Virus record (IMG/VR): IMGVR_UViG_3300042154_001073 | Coordinates: 1 to 20,435 of that record | Origin: a virus | Length of the DNA: 20,435 nucleotides | Strand: one strand, 5' to 3' | Part shown: in pieces, positions 1-18,806 of the stretch | Numbering within the stretch: the stretch's first letter is position 1 | Layout: every line of letters starts with the position of its first letter | The notes under the pieces: model-generated | Databases searched by the model: none | What the model saw: the letters and a program-made list of their open reading frames with translations, nothing else | What the model was told of the DNA's origin: nothing | Position numbers and translations under genes: made by a program

Positions 1-487
1 CTGTTCCGCCTGTTAGTGTGTTGCTGTTGTAGTCAATGATGCCGCCTTCTAGTATAACGCCGGCCATCTGTAATGGAGGTAGCATTTTAGCGTTAGCACC
101 GTCATAGATTTCACGAGTCTGTTTAATCATCTGACGCTCTTTTAACAAGTTGTCAAGGCCAACACGTTCAACAACTGTGAACCATTGACGATTGCCAACT
201 TCTTGTAAACTTTTCATTAGGTATGCTTCTGCACCCTGTGTAACTGCTGTAGAGAACAAGCTGAGTGTTGAACTTGGTTTACGCTGTCCTGTTAGGTCTT
301 TAAATCCATACACTGCTACTGTTACTGCTGGGCCTGCTGGTGCGGGCACATTGGCAAAACTCTTGTTGATAGTGTTTGAAACTGTGGCTTCTTCTTTGAT
401 TTTTGTGTTACCCAATGGGCGTACTGTTGAGCAGCCTGCTAGAGCTACTACGGCTAGTGTGATTAAGGATAGTTTGATTGCGTTCAT
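1..487 (-). CDS. csgG: CsgG-family outer-membrane lipoprotein (curli secretion pore), C-terminus outside window
   Basis: The first 162 residues are present; the gene runs off the left edge. It starts with a lipoprotein signal peptide and lipobox (LAGC, lipidated Cys19). The body follows E. coli CsgG closely in order: PAPAG near residue 50, VAVYGFKDLTGQ, FSTAV, WFTVVERVGLDNLLKERQ, and an ILEGGIIDYNSN segment. In the family, nine subunits form a 36-strand beta-barrel that passes unfolded curli subunits across the outer membrane. The loop that should form the constriction (E. coli Tyr51, Asn55, Phe56) keeps the Phe but has Ser/Leu instead of Tyr/Asn and is one residue longer. The start is an ATG nine bases after the csgF stop, with an AAGGAG ribosome site that overlaps that stop. 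No curli subunit gene is in the window, so here it probably serves as a phage-encoded envelope pore. Confidence 0.9.
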   Translation of the reverse strand, partial: MNAIKLSLITLAVVALAGCSTVRPLGNTKIKEEATVSNTINKSFANVPAPAGPAVTVAVYGFKDLTGQRKPSSTLSLFSTAVTQGAEAYLMKSLQEVGNRQWFTVVERVGLDNLLKERQMIKQTREIYDGANAKMLPPLQMAGVILEGGIIDYNSNTLTGGT

Positions 488-496
488 ATGTTCTCC

Positions 497-976
497 TTAA
501 AAACTAAAACTGGCAATTGGAACTACTACTGTAGTCACTGTGCCTTTGGCATCCACCACTGTTAGTGTGACTTTGTCATTGGCTTTTGCCCAAGTAACTG
601 TATTACCATCTAGGGCAAAAGTTCCAGTTGTTGGATTGACACAACCAGGAATTGCTGTGCCATCTGCGGCACTACATTTGTTTGTGAATAGGTTGTTGCT
701 TAACTGTGTGGCCAGTTGAGCATATATTTGACTTTGAAACAGACTCATAAATCTATTCAAAGGAGTGTTTAGCAGTTCTGCTTCTGCTTTGGCAATGGCA
801 GCTTTTTTGTCTGCTTCGATAGCGTCTTTACGTGACTTTTCAATACTGTCAATCGTCAAGACGTGGCTGCTGAATCCAATGCCGCTAAAGGCTGGATTTT
901 TAAATTGTTGTACTAGCTCTGCTTGCGACACTGTCGCAATCGCACTTAGACTTAGTGATACTAAGATTTTTTTCAT
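497..976 (-). CDS. csgF: CsgF-like curli assembly factor, secreted
   Basis: This is a 159-residue protein with a Sec signal peptide (residues 1-19, cleavage after SQA). The mature N-terminus carries QFKNPAF (24-30), which matches the conserved FxNPxF segment of CsgF, the part known to insert into the CsgG channel and make a second constriction. The C-terminal half ends in a repetitive Thr/Val beta region (TVTWAKANDKVTLTVVDAKG) like the CsgF C-terminal domain. A Lys/Ala-rich helix near 50-70 and a Cys pair near 102 and 113 are extra to E. coli CsgF. The order csgF then csgG, with a nine-base gap, is the same as in the bacterial curli operon, which supports joint action. The ribosome site is GGGAG. 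There is no CsgE, CsgA or CsgB in view. Confidence 0.82.
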   Translation of the reverse strand: MKKILVSLSLSAIATVSQAELVQQFKNPAFSGIGFSSHVLTIDSIEKSRKDAIEADKKAAIAKAEAELLNTPLNRFMSLFQSQIYAQLATQLSNNLFTNKCSAADGTAIPGCVNPTTGTFALDGNTVTWAKANDKVTLTVVDAKGTVTTVVVPIASFSF

Positions 977-987
977 CGGTTCGCTCC

Positions 988-1009
988 CGGTTACAAAAGT
1001 ATTTAACCG
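988..1009 (-). repeat. Inverted repeat in the csgF leader
   Basis: CGGTTA at 988-993 pairs with TAACCG at 1004-1009 around a 10-base loop, just upstream of the csgF ribosome site. In the 60-base gap it is the only structure I can see. It could be a leader hairpin; there is no T-tract, so it is not a clear terminator. No sigma-70 promoter is evident there. Confidence 0.35.
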
Positions 1010-1036
1010 AAAGCTGCGATAGATTAAACTCTACTA

Positions 1037-1408
1037 TTAAAGGATAATTAAAATGTATGCCATTGCCATATAGCATACTTGATGGGCTAGTTGATCTAGG
1101 CCAAACTGGTTCCAAAACAATGGTTTAGTATTGTCCTTACAACCGTATTTTACTTTTGTGTAATCGATTGTGTAATGTAGTATACCTTCTACGAACACGA
1201 TAGGAATGATTAACTGAGCATTAATTGGAAATAATATTGCGAAAACCAGTAAGGCAACCAACGAGCACCAGATATGATCCATAGTATGACTTATGCCGAT
1301 CGGGTCTAACCACACGCCTTTTTTGATAGTTTGCATGTAGGTTTGAATCTTAAAATCAGCGTACCAGTGCTTGATTTGTAGCAGGGTTAAAAGTGCTAGT
1401 ATTTCCAT
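1037..1408 (-). CDS. DUF3307-type membrane protein
   Basis: A 123-residue multi-spanning protein. The N-terminus (LLQIKHWYADFKIQT, 10-24) and the later H-bearing segments (SHTMDH, 40-45; EGILHYTIDYTKVKYG; LDQLAHQVCYMAM) match the spaced His/Asp pattern of the DUF3307 family, found in phages and bacteria and of unknown function. Hydrophobic helices lie at about 46-63, 64-80 and 106-123. The ATG is preceded by AATAAATAAAAACAC with no Shine-Dalgarno, and a T4-late-type octamer ends only seven bases upstream, so the mRNA may be leaderless. The family assignment is from memory of the motif pattern. Confidence 0.68.
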   Translation of the reverse strand: MEILALLTLLQIKHWYADFKIQTYMQTIKKGVWLDPIGISHTMDHIWCSLVALLVFAILFPINAQLIIPIVFVEGILHYTIDYTKVKYGCKDNTKPLFWNQFGLDQLAHQVCYMAMAYILIIL

Positions 1409-1415
1409 GTGTTTT

Positions 1416-1423
1416 TATTTATT
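1416..1423 (-). promoter_or_regulatory. Candidate T4-type late promoter octamer for the DUF3307 gene
   Basis: Minus-strand AATAAATA fits the NATAAATA late element of T4-like phages. It lies in the loop of an inverted repeat (GTGTTTT/AAAACAC, about 1409-1430) and stops seven bases short of the ATG, leaving no room for a Shine-Dalgarno. Seen by eye; AT-rich chance matches are possible. Confidence 0.4.
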
Positions 1424-1461
1424 AAAACACAGAGGGAGATTTTAGTAAAAAAGGCCAGTTA

Positions 1462-3252
1462 TTAGCTCGAAATTATACTAGCGTTATAGGATGGTGTTGG
1501 AGTTTGTTGGGCATCGTTCCAGTTGAATCCACTTGTGATTACAACTGTACCGTTTTGGATTTTATCTAAGAAATCTGTAGGATCGCCACCTGATCCACGC
1601 ATAATTGTATAATCTAGTGTAGTAGTGTTTAAAAACATAATATTTTCAACACCGTCTTCTAAATGGTAACTTACGAAAGAAATAGCAGTTACAGCTTTGT
1701 TCATTTCTTCAAAATTAACAGACTTACCGTTCCTAGCAATAGCTTTTCCTATCATACCTTCTGGAGAATCTATACCTAGTTCTTCCATGTGCTGTTTAAC
1801 AGCGCCCCAGTTGTTTACAATAGACTTCATCGTGTTAAGAAACAAACCAACTGTTTCTGCACGTGTGCTGTGCGGTAGTACTTCGTTGTTTAACGCATCG
1901 AAGCCTTTCTTATTCCAGTTATACTTTGACGCAGTTTTACCCGATGAAAGGTTAACCATGTTCGAACTGTACTGTTTAGACTTAACCGAAACAGGATTGC
2001 CTTTTTTATCTGTATTTTGGAATGTAGCAGTGGGAGGAGCGTTCTTTTGTATAAGTTCATCGATAACTTGACTCCAGATTTTCCAACCTGTTGTTGCTTT
2101 ACCAATGCCCTTACTATTCAAACGGCCACCGTTCTTTTTACCTGCTTTAATCTCATACATCTCGCCATTGATTTCCAAGTCGCCGTGCGTTTCGGCTTTT
2201 CTAGTTGGGCTACCCATCATAGAAAGAGCCATTTCACCAGGACCTACAGCGCCGGATGTTGTACCTGGACTGTATTCAAAGATATTGTTTTCAGGTCTTG
2301 TAAACAAGTCGAACACATCAGCCCATTGGCCATTTAATGCGTCGCGGATGTTTCCGCGATCTTGTCCAACTACTGCTGTCATGTCGATAACTTTCTTATC
2401 AACACATGCTTTTAAGAAGTTTTTAATTTGATCAGGTGTTACGCTTGTTTCACGCTTGTTAGCCATTTCAATGATTAAGCCAAACAATGCTTGTCTTAGT
2501 GTACTAGTAAACTGCTGTGCGTTAACGATTTTTTTCTTTTGTGCAGCTTTTAACGAGCTAGTATCGATGCTATCGATAGTTTCACTATAGCCTTGTACAC
2601 GATCACCTAATACTGTTAAGTAGCCAGCAATGTCTTTTAAGAACTTGTCGGCTTCTTCTTTTTGCTTCTTGTATAAGTCACGCTCTTCGACTGCCGCTTT
2701 AAAGCCTTTAAAAGTAGCTGTAGCACTTTCTAACTGTTGATTAGCAAACTGTAATCCGCGATCACGTAATTGTGTTTCTTTTGGTGTTTCGGGCTCAACT
2801 GATTCTAAGTAACGAATTTCTTCTTTGATAGTTTCTAAGTTGGCTTTGGCTGCTTCTAACTGATCTGGAAAATGATATTCGCGTCTTCTGTTATATTTTA
2901 CACCTTCTGTTACAGGCGCTTCTGGAGCAATCGGTGACACTGCTTGGGCAGGTTGTACTGAAGCAGGCACTGGTTGTACTGGGGCAGGAGCAGGCACTGG
3001 GGCAGGAGCAGGCGCTGGAGCAGACTGAGCCAGAGTAGACTTTGCCCTAAAGTATTCTGTAAACTTGCCAATACCATCAATAATCTTTTCTAGCGTATCG
3101 TTAAATTTAACTAGTCGCTGTCCGTCTTCTTCGGGTATTTTGTCAGTTACTGAAGTTAACAAGTTTACAGTATGTAAAGCATTGTTTGCTGTTAGTCGAG
3201 GGTCTGCGGCAGCTTCGTAAAGGTTGGTGATTTTAAATTCGCGAAATCTCAT
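1462..3252 (-). CDS. Large phage protein with coiled coils and a possible PD-(D/E)XK-type motif
   Basis: A 596-residue protein with several regions. Residues 1-70 form a helical head starting MRFREFK, a style of N-terminus common in T4-like marine phages. Residues 76-110 are a low-complexity Pro/Ala/Val linker. Residues 128-205 are charged and predicted coiled coil. A central helical region follows to about 320. The most telling part is 337-378: GPGE, then HGDLEI (356-361), then YEIKAGKKNGGRL (366-378). The D-Xn-ExK spacing resembles a PD-(D/E)XK nuclease core, and I have seen similar GPGE/GDL/EVK/GGRL strings in cyanophage proteins annotated as structural. The C-terminal third is globular and unrecognised. 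It is plausibly a virion or DNA-processing protein; the exact function is unknown. A CTAAATA string lies just upstream, and the ATG is ten bases after the bilin reductase stop. Confidence 0.6.
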   Translation of the reverse strand: MRFREFKITNLYEAAADPRLTANNALHTVNLLTSVTDKIPEEDGQRLVKFNDTLEKIIDGIGKFTEYFRAKSTLAQSAPAPAPAPVPAPAPVQPVPASVQPAQAVSPIAPEAPVTEGVKYNRRREYHFPDQLEAAKANLETIKEEIRYLESVEPETPKETQLRDRGLQFANQQLESATATFKGFKAAVEERDLYKKQKEEADKFLKDIAGYLTVLGDRVQGYSETIDSIDTSSLKAAQKKKIVNAQQFTSTLRQALFGLIIEMANKRETSVTPDQIKNFLKACVDKKVIDMTAVVGQDRGNIRDALNGQWADVFDLFTRPENNIFEYSPGTTSGAVGPGEMALSMMGSPTRKAETHGDLEINGEMYEIKAGKKNGGRLNSKGIGKATTGWKIWSQVIDELIQKNAPPTATFQNTDKKGNPVSVKSKQYSSNMVNLSSGKTASKYNWNKKGFDALNNEVLPHSTRAETVGLFLNTMKSIVNNWGAVKQHMEELGIDSPEGMIGKAIARNGKSVNFEEMNKAVTAISFVSYHLEDGVENIMFLNTTTLDYTIMRGSGGDPTDFLDKIQNGTVVITSGFNWNDAQQTPTPSYNASIISS

Positions 3253-3262
3253 AGTTTAATAT

Positions 3263-3943
3263 TTAGCGAATTTCAGGGAACAAGCAGTCCTGAATGAACA
3301 CTTTTACATCTTCTTCGTTTAGCCCTAGACTAGCCATAACTTTAGGAGTATGCGGATTCTGCTTTTGATTCTGTGCGTAGAAGTTCTGTGCGTCTTTAGT
3401 GCTTTCCACAGTATTATTAGTTTCTGACACAGTGGCAAGGTAATGATTTAAATTCTTACGTGCCATGGCAAGAATCTGAGTTAGCTCTTCGCCTTCGCTT
3501 ACATTGCCTGCTGCCACCATGTGTTTGGTAAAAATACGTTGTGCCCAATCGGGTAATGGGCGTGGCTTGTTCCATTCTAGCTTGCTAGATTCATGTTCGA
3601 ACCAGTCAATCATAGGATGGGCTGGATCTCCGGCGGGACTGAAATCATGAAAACAACCGGTAATTTTATTCTTACCTGCTACTACATCAAAGCCAAATAT
3701 TGGTGCTGGATTGTGTAAGTGCGGAAACACACAGCAATGCATCATCCAAAGACCCCGAGTGTCTCTAGCATCTACTATGTCAATGTGCGCTCTACGGTAA
3801 CTGTCGCTTTCCCACACCAAGTTAACCCACCCTGGTTTGTTAAAACGATCCATATTTTTTTCATGTAATAACCAGCCGCTGTTGTGAAAGGCTATTTCGA
3901 AATATTCTTGTACATCTACAAGTGTGTTCCAAACTTGACTCAT
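3263..3943 (-). CDS. pcyX: Ferredoxin-dependent bilin reductase (PcyA/PcyX type)
   Basis: A 226-residue reductase that takes electrons from ferredoxin to reduce biliverdin IX-alpha, the product of the heme oxygenase next to it. The core WMMHCCVFPH...FGFDVVAGKNKITG aligns with cyanobacterial PcyA, with His69 and Asp86 standing 17 residues apart, the same spacing as PcyA catalytic His88/Asp105. The substrate-pocket strand AHIDIVDAR, the DFSPAGDP loop and the C-terminal NQKQNPHTPKVMASLG and DCLFPEI strings also fit; Asp219 may be the second catalytic Asp of PebS-like enzymes. The first Met of the longer frame (3982) lies inside the heme oxygenase gene. The ATG at 3943 overlaps the heme oxygenase stop as ATGA, so I chose it. 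PcyX from uncultured marine phages makes phycoerythrobilin; that product here is inference, and phycocyanobilin or another bilin is possible. Confidence 0.85.
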   Translation of the reverse strand: MSQVWNTLVDVQEYFEIAFHNSGWLLHEKNMDRFNKPGWVNLVWESDSYRRAHIDIVDARDTRGLWMMHCCVFPHLHNPAPIFGFDVVAGKNKITGCFHDFSPAGDPAHPMIDWFEHESSKLEWNKPRPLPDWAQRIFTKHMVAAGNVSEGEELTQILAMARKNLNHYLATVSETNNTVESTKDAQNFYAQNQKQNPHTPKVMASLGLNEEDVKVFIQDCLFPEIR

Positions 3944-4479
3944 AATTCTGTGTTCAACGCTTTCATCAGTTTGATAGCCCACTCGAAAGCCACTCGAGCT
4001 TCATCGCCCAGGTCATCTGTGAGTTCTGCTCTAATTGCTGCCTTAAGAGCTTCTGAATCTTTAAACTGATAAAATCTGCCTTGTCCTGGAACTTTTTTAG
4101 CAATTATTTGTCCGCCAAACAAATCGCCCATGTGTCTACAGTACAGGTGAGCCTTGACTAGATGTTTACGATCACTGTAGTTGAGTGCTAGTAAATATTG
4201 ATAGTAATCAATAGTTGCGGGCAACCATTTAAGTTGATGGTTGGGTCCGACTAGTTCAATACAATCTTGATAAATTTTATGTGCTCGTTCAATGTCGGGT
4301 AAGTTTTTTAACATACCCTGGCTATTTGCAGCTACCTCAATGCCGTTATAAACAAGTGTCATTTGCCAAAGATAATTGGCGTATTCTTCTGTTGAAATAC
4401 TGCCTGTAACTAATTTTTTGGCAAACAGCGTTCGTTCTGCGTCCGTGTGTAAATCTTTTGTTATGTCTCGTAAGCTCAT
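3940..4479 (-). CDS. ho1: Heme oxygenase (biliverdin-producing)
   Basis: A 179-residue enzyme that opens heme to biliverdin IX-alpha, CO and iron, using ferredoxin as reductant in plastid/cyanobacterial relatives. Family marks are all present: the proximal heme ligand His11 in DLHTDAERT, the Y-x-x-Y-L segment (33-37), the ALNYSDRKHLVKAHLYCRH helix, and the distal-helix signature GDLFGGQ at 118-124 that bends over the heme. Length is a little short of bacterial HO1 (about 200-240). It overlaps clpS by ATGA on its 5' side and the bilin reductase by ATGA on its 3' side, so the three are translationally coupled and heme would be processed to a reduced bilin in one step. Confidence 0.92.
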   Translation of the reverse strand: MSLRDITKDLHTDAERTLFAKKLVTGSISTEEYANYLWQMTLVYNGIEVAANSQGMLKNLPDIERAHKIYQDCIELVGPNHQLKWLPATIDYYQYLLALNYSDRKHLVKAHLYCRHMGDLFGGQIIAKKVPGQGRFYQFKDSEALKAAIRAELTDDLGDEARVAFEWAIKLMKALNTEL

Positions 4480-4823: not shown

Positions 4824-5249
4824 TTACTTGATTTCGATTCTACGAGGCTTAAGAGCTTCTGGTACAAGACGGTGTATGTCAATTTGTAACATACCGTGTT
4901 CTACTTTGGCGCCGCGAACTTCCATATACTCAGCAAGAGTAAATGTCTGTTCAAAGTCACGAGCTGCCAATCCACGATGTAAGTACTCAACTCCAGCATC
5001 TGCGTTGGGTCGATTTTTAATACCACGAATTGTTAATTGGTCCTGATCCACTTCTACAGTAACTTCTTCTTTATTGAAGCCTGCCACTGCAACTTCAATA
5101 GCATACGTATCGTCGCTATATTTTACAATATTGTGCGGAGGATAGTTACCATTTTGGTGATGTGTCGCACTGAAGTAGCGATCAAATCCTACTAGTGCTC
5201 TACTTAGTTGGGCAAGGTCTGCCGCGTTGATAGTTCTTAGCTGTGTCAT
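4824..5249 (-). CDS. hsp20: Small heat-shock protein, Hsp20/IbpA type
   Basis: A 141-residue alpha-crystallin-domain holdase. The N-terminal arm (1-35) carries the VGFDRYF string typical of IbpA/B. The crystallin domain (about 38-130) shows PPHNIVKYSDDTYAIEVAVAGF and the EYLHRGLAARDFEQTFTLAEYMEVRGAKVEHGMLQIDI strands. The C-terminus has the IxI anchoring motif (RRIEIK). Hsp20 genes are common in T4-like cyanophages and pelagimyophages, where a role in virion or scaffold folding has been suggested. It follows dnaK by 66 bases containing a hairpin and a repeated leader element, and has a strong AAGGAG ribosome site. Confidence 0.93.
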   Translation of the reverse strand: MTQLRTINAADLAQLSRALVGFDRYFSATHHQNGNYPPHNIVKYSDDTYAIEVAVAGFNKEEVTVEVDQDQLTIRGIKNRPNADAGVEYLHRGLAARDFEQTFTLAEYMEVRGAKVEHGMLQIDIHRLVPEALKPRRIEIK

Positions 5250-13562: not shown

Positions 13563-13889
13563 TTAGATTCTAAATGACTCGCCGCAACCGCAACGATCCT
13601 TTTCATTTGGATTGACAAAGTCAAATCCTTCATTGAGCCCATTACGAACCCAATCCATAGTCAAACCATTTAGATATACTATACTTTTGGCATCTACCAA
13701 TACCACAAAGTCAGTTTGGGCATAGTTAGTAACACCTGCTTCGGCTGTGTATTCGTCTACATATTCTAACACATAGGCTAGTCCACTACATCCAGTAGTC
13801 TTTACACCAATACGAATGCCCACACCCTTGCCACGCTTTTCCAGATTTTGTTTAATCCGTTTACTTGCTGTGTCGGTTACGGTAATCAT
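13563..13889 (-). CDS. iscA: A-type Fe-S carrier IscA
   Basis: A 108-residue A-type carrier. The three ligand cysteines are present: Cys34 in TTGCSGLAYVLE and Cys100/Cys102 in DRCGCGESFRI. The RGKGVGIRIGVKTTGCSG string aligns with E. coli IscA. These proteins bind iron or an Fe-S cluster and pass it to apoproteins. It starts inside iscU with a 29-base overlap, so the two are tightly coupled. There is no IscS, HscA, HscB or Fdx nearby; sulfur must come from the host desulfurase. Confidence 0.94.
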   Translation of the reverse strand: MITVTDTASKRIKQNLEKRGKGVGIRIGVKTTGCSGLAYVLEYVDEYTAEAGVTNYAQTDFVVLVDAKSIVYLNGLTMDWVRNGLNEGFDFVNPNEKDRCGCGESFRI

Positions 13890-14244
13890 TTACGGCCGCT
13901 TTGATAGCATCTTCTGCTAGGATACTACAGTGTATCTTAACTGGGGGTAAGGCTAGTTCTTCAGCAATTTCCGAATTACTAAGTTTGATAGCATCATCAA
14001 GATGCATTCCTTTAACCATCTCGGTGACAAGACTTGAGCTGGCGATTGCTGAACCACATCCATATGTCTTGAAACGAGCATCTCTAATAATGCCATCACT
14101 GTCAACCTTTATCTGTAATTTCATTACGTCGCCGCAAGCAGGTGCACCAACCATACCAGTACCAATATCAGGATCACTCTTGTCAAAAGATCCGACATTC
14201 CGGGGATTTTCATAGTGATCAATCACCTTTTCTGAATAAGCCAT
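13861..14244 (-). CDS. iscU: Fe-S cluster scaffold IscU
   Basis: A 127-residue scaffold on which [2Fe-2S] clusters are built. Cys37 (PACGDV), Asp39, Cys63 (YGCGSAI) and His105-Cys106 (KIHCSI) are all present, and so is LPPVK (99-103), the binding site for the specialised Hsp70 HscA. The N-terminus MAYSEKVIDHYENPRNVGSF is identical to that of E. coli IscU, and the rest is very close, so this is a recent or strongly constrained host acquisition. An AGGAGG site and a late-type octamer precede the ATG. Together with iscA it could supply Fe-S to phage or host ferredoxins during infection. Confidence 0.97.
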   Translation of the reverse strand: MAYSEKVIDHYENPRNVGSFDKSDPDIGTGMVGAPACGDVMKLQIKVDSDGIIRDARFKTYGCGSAIASSSLVTEMVKGMHLDDAIKLSNSEIAEELALPPVKIHCSILAEDAIKAAVNDYRNRHSK

Positions 14245-18155: not shown

Positions 18156-18806
18156 TTAATATTTTCCTGATGCAAGTACTATCTTGCAAATGTGTTCTAA
18201 TCTTTCTATATGCTCGTATGCTCGCCACGGTGTTGTATCGATAGCAACAACTCCGTGTCCTTTAATACCAACTATGTCGTAGGCAATATTTCCACGGTCA
18301 TCCAATTCTAACCGATAATGGCATTGATCCGCAAGCTCTTGGCTGATGGGTTTTACATCACCTACATTTGGTGCTACTTTAGTATAACGATTGAGTTCTG
18401 GAAACGCTGAACTGACTGTGCTCAAATCAATTCCGGCATGCATGGCCGCAATACAGTAAGTGGGGTGAACGTGTACTACTACACGAACTTCACCGGTGTG
18501 CTGTCCCATTTCTTTTTGTAGGCCAAAGTGTAAGGGTAGTTCTCCACTGGGCTTTAAGTTGGCACTGATTTCAGTATAGGGTAGTTCTTTGCTCGCATGA
18601 TAAGGACGAGGAGGTTGGTCATAGTATCCTGTCTCAATGCCAATCTTTTTAAACTGGTCTGGTTGTAGAGTCTGCTTACGCACACCACTGGGTGTGATGT
18701 AAAAGTGGTCACGGTCATGATGTCGTATGCTTACGTTACCATCACGACTGGTAATCCAATTACGCTTGTAAGCGTCTACCATTATGTCACATATAGTTTC
18801 TAACAC
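18156..18806 (-). CDS. Class II aldolase/adducin-family protein
   Basis: A 216-residue aldolase II protein (fuculose-phosphate aldolase type). The N-terminal SRDGNVSIR motif binds phosphate, Glu89 (PSGELPLH) is the probable catalytic acid, His112 and His114 (VVHVHPTY) and His199 (AYEHIE) are the zinc ligands. Whether it is an aldolase, epimerase or dehydratase cannot be told. It uses a GTG start directly after a TAA, with AGAGGA nine bases upstream. It lies inside the nrd operon, an uncommon site; a sugar-phosphate to deoxyribose link is possible. Confidence 0.85.
   Translation of the reverse strand: MLETICDIMVDAYKRNWITSRDGNVSIRHHDRDHFYITPSGVRKQTLQPDQFKKIGIETGYYDQPPRPYHASKELPYTEISANLKPSGELPLHFGLQKEMGQHTGEVRVVVHVHPTYCIAAMHAGIDLSTVSSAFPELNRYTKVAPNVGDVKPISQELADQCHYRLELDDRGNIAYDIVGIKGHGVVAIDTTPWRAYEHIERLEHICKIVLASGKY

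Follow-up and report, generated by a model that had tools for sequence, protein, structure and literature searches.

A conserved chaperone-linked gene block with a heme oxygenase and a PcyX-type bilin reductase in a huge phage with a probable betaproteobacterial host

Gene content of the locus

The window, by which we mean the whole stretch of DNA analysed here, corresponds to a 20,435-bp IMG/VR record and encodes a compact heme oxygenase (HO) and a ferredoxin-dependent bilin reductase (FDBR) beside a group of chaperone genes (Table 1). The reductase frame begins with an ATG at 3943, its stop ends at 3263, and it overlaps the HO gene as ATGA; the pair and its overlap lie where the initial annotation had placed them, at 3263-4479 on the minus strand. 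The HO gene in turn overlaps the gene for the protease adaptor ClpS as ATGA, so that ClpS, HO and the reductase form a single chain. Of 81 distinct HO-reductase segments, 70 show an overlap of HO and reductase, and 79 have ClpS and HO in order, 55 of these with the exact 4-nt overlap. The 12 commonest spacings between Hsp20 and ClpS in the same segment set range from 37 to 58 nt, and tight coupling therefore starts at ClpS. NrdB, IscU, IscA and glutaredoxin are also encoded within the window, and Rfam and tRNA scans of it returned nothing. Directly downstream of the reductase lies a gene for a 596-aa protein (1462-3252, minus strand) without Pfam or PHROG match, which was matched in just 7 of the 80 best reductase loci among 331.

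Table 1. Positions of the features discussed in the text
Feature	Position	Strand	Basis or remark
PcyX-type ferredoxin-dependent bilin reductase, 226 aa	3263..3943	minus	Asp55, His69, Asp86; Pfam, tree, fold
ATGA overlap, HO stop / PcyX start	3940..3943	minus	Sequence
Compact heme oxygenase (HO), 179 aa	3940-4479	minus	Pfam, His11, GDLFGGQ, fold
ATGA overlap, ClpS stop / HO start	4476..4479	minus	Not mentioned in the initial annotation
ClpS, Clp protease adaptor, 100 aa	4476..4778	minus	Pfam ClpS, E=5.7e-28
Hsp20 small heat-shock protein	4824..5249	minus	Pfam
DnaK, 631 aa	5316..7211	minus	Pfam, NCBIfam
IscA-type Fe-S carrier, possible iron-economy partner	13563..13889	minus	NCBIfam
IscU Fe-S scaffold, possible iron-economy partner	13861..14244	minus	NCBIfam

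The HO protein matches the Pfam family Heme_oxygenase (PF01126; E=4.7e-19, 69.4 bits against a cut-off of 23) and has no NCBIfam match at E<=0.001. Both active-site elements that had been claimed for it are present, His11 and the motif GDLFGGQ (residues 118-124), and His11, Gly118, Asp119, Gly122 and Gly123 are invariant in all 79 distinct sequences. The structural model of HO (pLDDT 93.5) matches the folds of HO-1 and HmuO. Relatives of HO occur in 51 IMG/VR stretches and those of the reductase in 331. With these relatives, the invariant residues and the sequence match of the reductase to the solved structure 5owg (E=3.2e-66), the two genes are not chance frames.

Assignment of the reductase to the PcyX type

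The reductase matches Pfam Fe_bilin_red (PF05996; E=8.1e-16, 58.8 bits against a cut-off of 31), and PcyX EBK42635 (PDB 5owg) is its nearest solved structure by sequence. The nearest phage record is that of pelagiphage Mosig, with 49.8% identity to the window reductase; the 20 matched cyanophage records share 23-27% identity with it. His69 and Asp86, which the initial annotation had singled out, are found at the positions it named and are invariant in all 79 distinct reductase sequences. Asp55, which it had left unnamed, is present too. Among the 79 distinct relatives, 76 have Asp at position 55, two have Glu and one has Ser, and the accessible text of Wegner 2024 (PMC11480375) calls Asp55 PcyX-specific.

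A phylogenetic placement had been proposed as a check, and in a tree of 76 rows, with alphaproteobacterial PcyA and CB_2 not among them, the window reductase falls inside the FDBRs, within a 69-row branch that also holds the reference PcyX EBK42635 and Mosig (support 100/99). The six PcyA rows and PebS of P-SSM2 are outside this branch; PebS, with which the window reductase does not group, is on a very long branch, and several PcyA rows are on long branches as well. The AlphaFold model of the reductase (pLDDT 94.2) has its best match in 5owg (Foldseek E=3e-16; VIA Z 25.9, rmsd 0.9 over 177 residues). The next rows, PcyA and PebA, follow at Z 24.1, so that the modelled fold identifies the family, and the small rmsd favours PcyX. 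Tree branch, Asp55 and fold match agree, and they bear out the earlier reading of the enzyme as PcyX-type. PcyX is reported to make phycoerythrobilin (PEB) via 15,16-dihydrobiliverdin (available text of PMC13197396). We predict from the sequence that the window reductase makes PEB, a pink bilin, as well, because Asp55 is described as PcyX-specific and CB_2, which has no Asp55, proved to be a PcyA.

Conservation of the chaperone-linked block

The surroundings of the reductase were compared in the best 80 of the 331 matching stretches, with flanks of up to 10 kb. Every one of the 80 loci has an HO gene no more than 1.5 kb from the reductase, upstream in 74 and downstream in 6. DnaK, Hsp20 and ClpS accompany the reductase together in 68 of these loci, Hsp20 and ClpS only in 5, and none of the three in 7 (Hsp20 in 73, DnaK in 68); IscA is found in 32 and IscU in 23. 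To avoid selecting loci by the cassette itself, ClpS and DnaK were used as anchors, with 77 of 80 loci examined for each, and both genes were counted as present when tblastn matched HO and the reductase within the stretch. Both genes are present in all 62 loci in which 2.5 kb or more follow the ClpS anchor, and HO and reductase are separated by no more than 632 nt in all 70 ClpS-anchored loci that have the two. The 57 DnaK-anchored loci with ClpS and at least 2.5 kb downstream divide into 51 with both genes, 1 with HO only and 5 with neither, and 6 further DnaK-anchored loci (at least 4 kb downstream) have none of ClpS, Hsp20, HO and reductase. After clustering by ClpS similarity, both genes are present in 54 of 60 clusters. 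Some contigs, the window's own among them, recur across the sets anchored on ClpS, DnaK, HO and reductase, whose counts are therefore not independent samples.

DnaK-Hsp20-ClpS-HO-reductase is thus a conserved block that contains the HO-reductase pair, and the chaperone linkage to which the initial annotation had drawn attention is real. The link of the cassette to proteostasis may be positional only, because the block occurs without the pair in five loci and DnaK without either in six. ClpS identity to the window is 46-50% in the five loci without the pair and reaches down to 41% in loci with it; since these ranges overlap, identity alone does not separate the two groups. Four of the five loci without the pair were opened (L326, L357, L365 and L371), and in these DnaK-Hsp20-ClpS is followed a few kb on by a gene for the ClpP protease.

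For the reductase the median dN/dS is 0.043 (6 usable pairs, maximum 0.133), for HO 0.078 (13 pairs, maximum 0.735), for DnaK 0.134 (29 pairs) and for ClpS 0.189 (10 pairs), values that come from few pairs and a simple method and give the order of magnitude only. These low ratios indicate purifying selection, by which the cassette genes are maintained.

In bacterial genomes the reductase was found at six loci in diverse MAGs, and no match was found among plasmids. One of the six (L164 1128-5131, from a MAG labelled Halobacteroidaceae) has the same DnaK-Hsp20-ClpS-HO-reductase order. Because this locus has the order of the phage block, the six are probably mis-binned phage DNA, the order having been checked in this one only. 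A different arrangement is seen in L004, L005, L006, L010, L011 and L012, where a reductase 76% identical to that of the window is followed, not preceded, by an HO of only about 37% identity, without chaperones; loci of this type suggest a transfer of the reductase from one phage lineage to another and its pairing with a different HO. In L003, L007 and L008, HO and reductase are separated by a class II aldolase gene with 79-83% identity to window positions 18156-18806.

Position 55 and tandem reductases

The reductases of Mosig-type loci (best 80 of 194) have Asp55 in all 80 cases and HO within the stretch in 76, and ClpS, Hsp20 and DnaK were found in none of these 80, with flanks of at most 6 kb and many contigs shorter. 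With a Glu55 reductase as query, 61 usable copies in 56 loci were obtained, in which the residue is Glu in 46, Asp in 13, Gln in 1 and His in 1. HO is present in 52 of these 56 loci, and ClpS and Hsp20 in 31 each. Five loci (L374, L415, L416, L419 and L420) carry two reductases in tandem behind HO, an Asp55 form ahead of a Glu55 form. L374 is from the same contig as L130 (tandem reductases at L130 10521-11863), and L415/L416 and L419/L420 are apparent near-copies, so that the independent cases number fewer than five. From their residues, such tandems are predicted to combine a PEB and a PCB maker in one phage. The near-fixation of Asp55 together with the tandem reductases suggests that it matters which bilin is made.

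Source contig and probable host

The window is contained in a viral contig of 383,411 bp (G001; IMGVR_UViG_3300042868_005134), to which it is 100% identical across 19,901 compared bases. This contig has 41 tRNA genes and, according to ARAGORN, a permuted tmRNA at about 375,546-375,956 (minus strand), which matches beta_tmRNA in Rfam (RF01850; E=3.1e-41, 134 bits, cut-off 84) and also tmRNA_permuted. A second large relative (G002) has a permuted beta_tmRNA of the same kind (106 bits, about 283,055-283,497, minus strand); the feature is thus present in two of the four large contigs examined, and ARAGORN found no tmRNA in the other two, G005 and G006. A terminase family match was obtained in 6 of 20 related records, exactly the six longer than 300 kb. 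We read the source of the window as a huge tailed phage with a probable betaproteobacterial host. A cyanobacterial host is unlikely, because the 383-kb contig carries a tmRNA of betaproteobacterial type, which supports the earlier suggestion of a non-cyanobacterial phage.

The DnaK, which the initial annotation had called betaproteobacterial-type, could not be confirmed as such: its best match has 72% identity among 274 genomes of one class. Beta_tmRNA exceeded the cut-off in none of 24 of those genomes (the 12 top DnaK matches and 12 others). The DnaK ranking and the tmRNA therefore do not converge on the same sampled genomes, and the result for the 24 neither supports nor excludes the betaproteobacterial reading.

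The tags that ARAGORN gives for the two-piece tmRNAs of G001 and G002 have 24 and 27 aa, longer than short bacterial tmRNA tags, and end in ...LAA; the same phage also encodes ClpS. Curli-type genes (CsgG, CsgF, a curlin-repeat protein and FecR) lie at window positions 2-976 and G001 positions 74-3026, with a similar second copy at the opposite end of G001 (380,712-383,402). In some relatives that are distant in other respects (L107-L109), CsgF and CsgG reach 90-95% identity, which points to exchange. G001 also encodes a CHASE2 sensor with a nucleotide cyclase domain (376,808-378,871) and a TctA tricarboxylate transporter subunit (372,485-373,945, minus strand).

Bilin receptors, ferredoxin and heme synthesis in related phages

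A search for a ferredoxin or phytochrome elsewhere in the genome, which had been proposed as a further check, came out negative: PHY, GAF and Fer2 were each found in 0 of 20 related phage records, so that no phage-encoded phytochrome was seen. The ferredoxin count refers to Fer2, with 4Fe-4S ferredoxins and flavodoxins outside its scope as families. Since 14 of the 20 records are shorter than 300 kb and are perhaps fragments, the zero counts are strongest for the six largest. A 126-aa frame of G001 was considered as a ferredoxin and rejected; it fits a loose cysteine pattern, but its sequence reads unlike a ferredoxin. 5-Aminolevulinate synthase (AlaS) is present in 7 of the 20 records, with no match on G001, and ferrochelatase in one, G005.

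Of the 20 records, only G005 has a partial match to Pfam Phycobilisome (30.6 and 29.1 bits against a cut-off of 22.2), at 361,396-361,638 and 363,409-363,606 on the minus strand, inside a 4122-aa frame that resembles a virion fibre. A stretch of the form Cys-(Arg/Lys/Ile)-Arg-Asp ... Tyr-Asp resembles the chromophore region of phycobiliproteins. Copies of the Cys-Arg-Arg-Asp type motif number seven in G005, two in G006, one in G001 (at 160,249) and none in G002, and the 131 cassette loci contain none. The G005 stretch matches baseplate or tail proteins in seven cyanophage records, and its best match among solved structures has E=0.1. Recurrence in virion-like proteins and the weak structural match led us to take it for a probable virion structural repeat rather than a bilin receptor.

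Possible function of the cassette

We consider it reasonably probable, going by the sequences, that ClpS-HO-PcyX includes a heme-to-PEB operon that is driven by host ferredoxin in a probable betaproteobacterial host and serves heme control. The three overlapping genes close a phage proteostasis block of DnaK, Hsp20 and ClpS. Heme oxygenases convert heme to biliverdin, CO and iron; the phage enzyme would act on host heme, yielding biliverdin IXalpha, and PcyX would reduce biliverdin to 15,16-dihydrobiliverdin and then to PEB. The electrons for PcyX would come from a host ferredoxin, as the phage showed no Fer2 ferredoxin, and, the host being probably a betaproteobacterium, the bilin would not be made for phycobilisomes. 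The likeliest gain would be heme control while the host cell is stressed and dying: heme freed by the breakdown of host proteins would be removed and its iron returned to phage iron enzymes, and HO would not be held up, because biliverdin would be passed on to a reduced bilin. The analysis shows the genes, their overlaps, synteny, catalytic residues, predicted fold, clade and purifying selection, and that no PHY or GAF receptor was found, whereas we infer enzyme activity, PEB as the product, the electron donor, the host and the benefit. The AlaS-bearing relatives speak against pure heme removal: AlaS, like the ferrochelatase of G005, would provide extra heme, which would be odd if removal were the only aim. 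In favour of a function for the bilin itself are the conserved residue at position 55 and the tandem arrangements. The purposes put forward in the initial annotation, namely phytochrome ligand, antioxidant, iron source and signal, may each apply.

The cassette might instead salvage iron, with heme iron being freed for phage enzymes such as class I ribonucleotide reductase and the clients of IscU and IscA, and the reductase just relieving HO of biliverdin. We regard this as unlikely, although HO chemistry does release iron, NrdB, IscU, IscA and glutaredoxin are encoded in the same window, and iron supply is discussed too in the available part of Wegner 2024 (PMC11480375). IscU and IscA accompany only a minority of the best 80 reductase loci, within flanks of at most 10 kb. 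HO alone would suffice, but of the two genes it is the reductase that shows the lower median dN/dS (few pairs), and AlaS in relatives, together with a putative ferrochelatase about 2.3 kb from HO in Mosig, would put iron back into heme. That the cassette supplies a chromophore for a light sensor of the host or for some other protein that binds bilins, with two bilins made by phages that have two reductases, appears rather unlikely to us. It would explain why Asp55 is nearly fixed in one set and Glu55 commonest in another, as well as the tandem loci, and AlaS in relatives would feed bilin synthesis; the chromophore of a freshwater phage PcyA was, moreover, assembled with Cph1 (accessible text of Wegner 2024, PMC11480375). 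The partial phycobilisome match of G005, which would be in its favour as it exceeds the Pfam cut-off, is in a virion-fibre-like frame with a motif that recurs in cyanophage baseplate or tail proteins, and neither PHY nor GAF was found in the 20 phage records. To our knowledge, PEB is not a usual ligand of proteobacterial phytochromes.

Cyanophages carry members of the same enzyme family (pebS and pcyA) that serve light-harvesting support, and cyanophage matches were indeed found. Such a use in a cyanobacterial host is hardly credible for the window, however, as its reductase shares 50% identity with that of pelagiphage Mosig against about 23-27% with the cyanophage enzymes, and a permuted beta_tmRNA is present on the window's contig and in G002. 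It is also very unlikely that the reductase is a PcyA that makes PCB and not a PcyX that makes PEB. The NCBIfam PcyA model does match it, but weakly, with 81.9 bits against an equivalog cut-off of 206, and the PcyA mark, a Glu at the Glu76 position, is absent, the window having Asp where the aligned PcyA of Synechocystis has Glu. The freshwater phage enzyme CB_2 was assayed and proved to be a PcyA, but it is without the Asp55 that the window enzyme has (Wegner 2024, PMC11480375, as far as its text is available), and tree and fold favour PcyX.

By analogy, we speculate that ClpS-HO-PcyX might be a phage tetrapyrrole-control operon, in which ClpS would redirect ClpAP, HO and PcyX would drain heme, the feedback of the host would be broken and the cell would become a bilin producer, tandem relatives making PEB and PCB; we hold this to be distinctly doubtful. 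According to the available parts of the respective papers, HemA (glutamyl-tRNA reductase, which catalyses the first step of heme synthesis in the host) is broken down in Salmonella through Lon and ClpAP upon heme binding (PMC4214671), and plastid ClpS1 binds the plant glutamyl-tRNA reductase, the decay of which in the dark is unchanged upon loss of ClpS1 (PMC7966870). HemA turnover via ClpAP and the binding by ClpS1 raise the thought that the operon could regulate both the entry into and the exit from the tetrapyrrole pathway.

Relation to known systems

HO-PcyX pairs in uncultured marine viruses, to which the initial annotation had referred, are published, as are HO-PcyA/X pairs in freshwater phages (accessible text of PMC11480375). 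The phage pair is therefore known; what is new is the conserved DnaK-Hsp20-ClpS-HO-reductase arrangement, of which we found no earlier report. No report of a ClpS-HO-PcyX arrangement was found in the open-access literature, and the words ClpS and chaperone are absent from the main text of PMC11480375. The cassette is a near-constant companion of one phage ClpS lineage and not sporadic cargo; gene overlap couples it to ClpS, synteny links it to DnaK and Hsp20, and it is under purifying selection. This gives a concrete handle on its purpose, in protein quality control and heme turnover, and the natural Asp55, Glu55 and tandem forms make PEB/PCB specificity testable without the making of mutants.

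The marine phage PcyX (EBK42635, 5owg) and pelagiphage Mosig EXVC030M are in the same reductase branch as the window enzyme and share its Asp55, His69 and Asp86, at about 50% identity. HO lies directly upstream of the reductase in Mosig, as in the window, but 2OG-Fe(II) oxygenases and the putative ferrochelatase are nearby instead of DnaK, Hsp20 and ClpS. The hemO-pcyA/X-alaS cassettes of Wegner 2024 likewise combine HO and FDBR in phages of non-cyanobacterial hosts, and the enzymes of CB_2, a freshwater phage, proved active, its reductase differing from that of the window at position 55. In the available text of that paper (PMC11480375), the new contigs were retrieved using AlaS as the bait, whereas the 383-kb contig of the window has no AlaS match.

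Bilin reductases outside photosynthesis, as here, are also known from the pre-PcyA and BBAG clusters of heterotrophic bacteria (Rockwell 2023, PMC10151467, in the part available). The pre-PcyA proteins are described there as lacking His88, which the window enzyme has as His69, and no BBAG-like gene was found beside the window cassette, the single partial phycobilisome-family match being in another of the 20 records. In the same text, phage PcyX and alphaproteobacterial PcyA are placed together in an AX clade (PMC10151467). The PebS of cyanophage P-SSM2 and cyanophage PcyA are phage FDBRs like that of the window, but belong to other branches of the tree and to phages of photosynthetic hosts.
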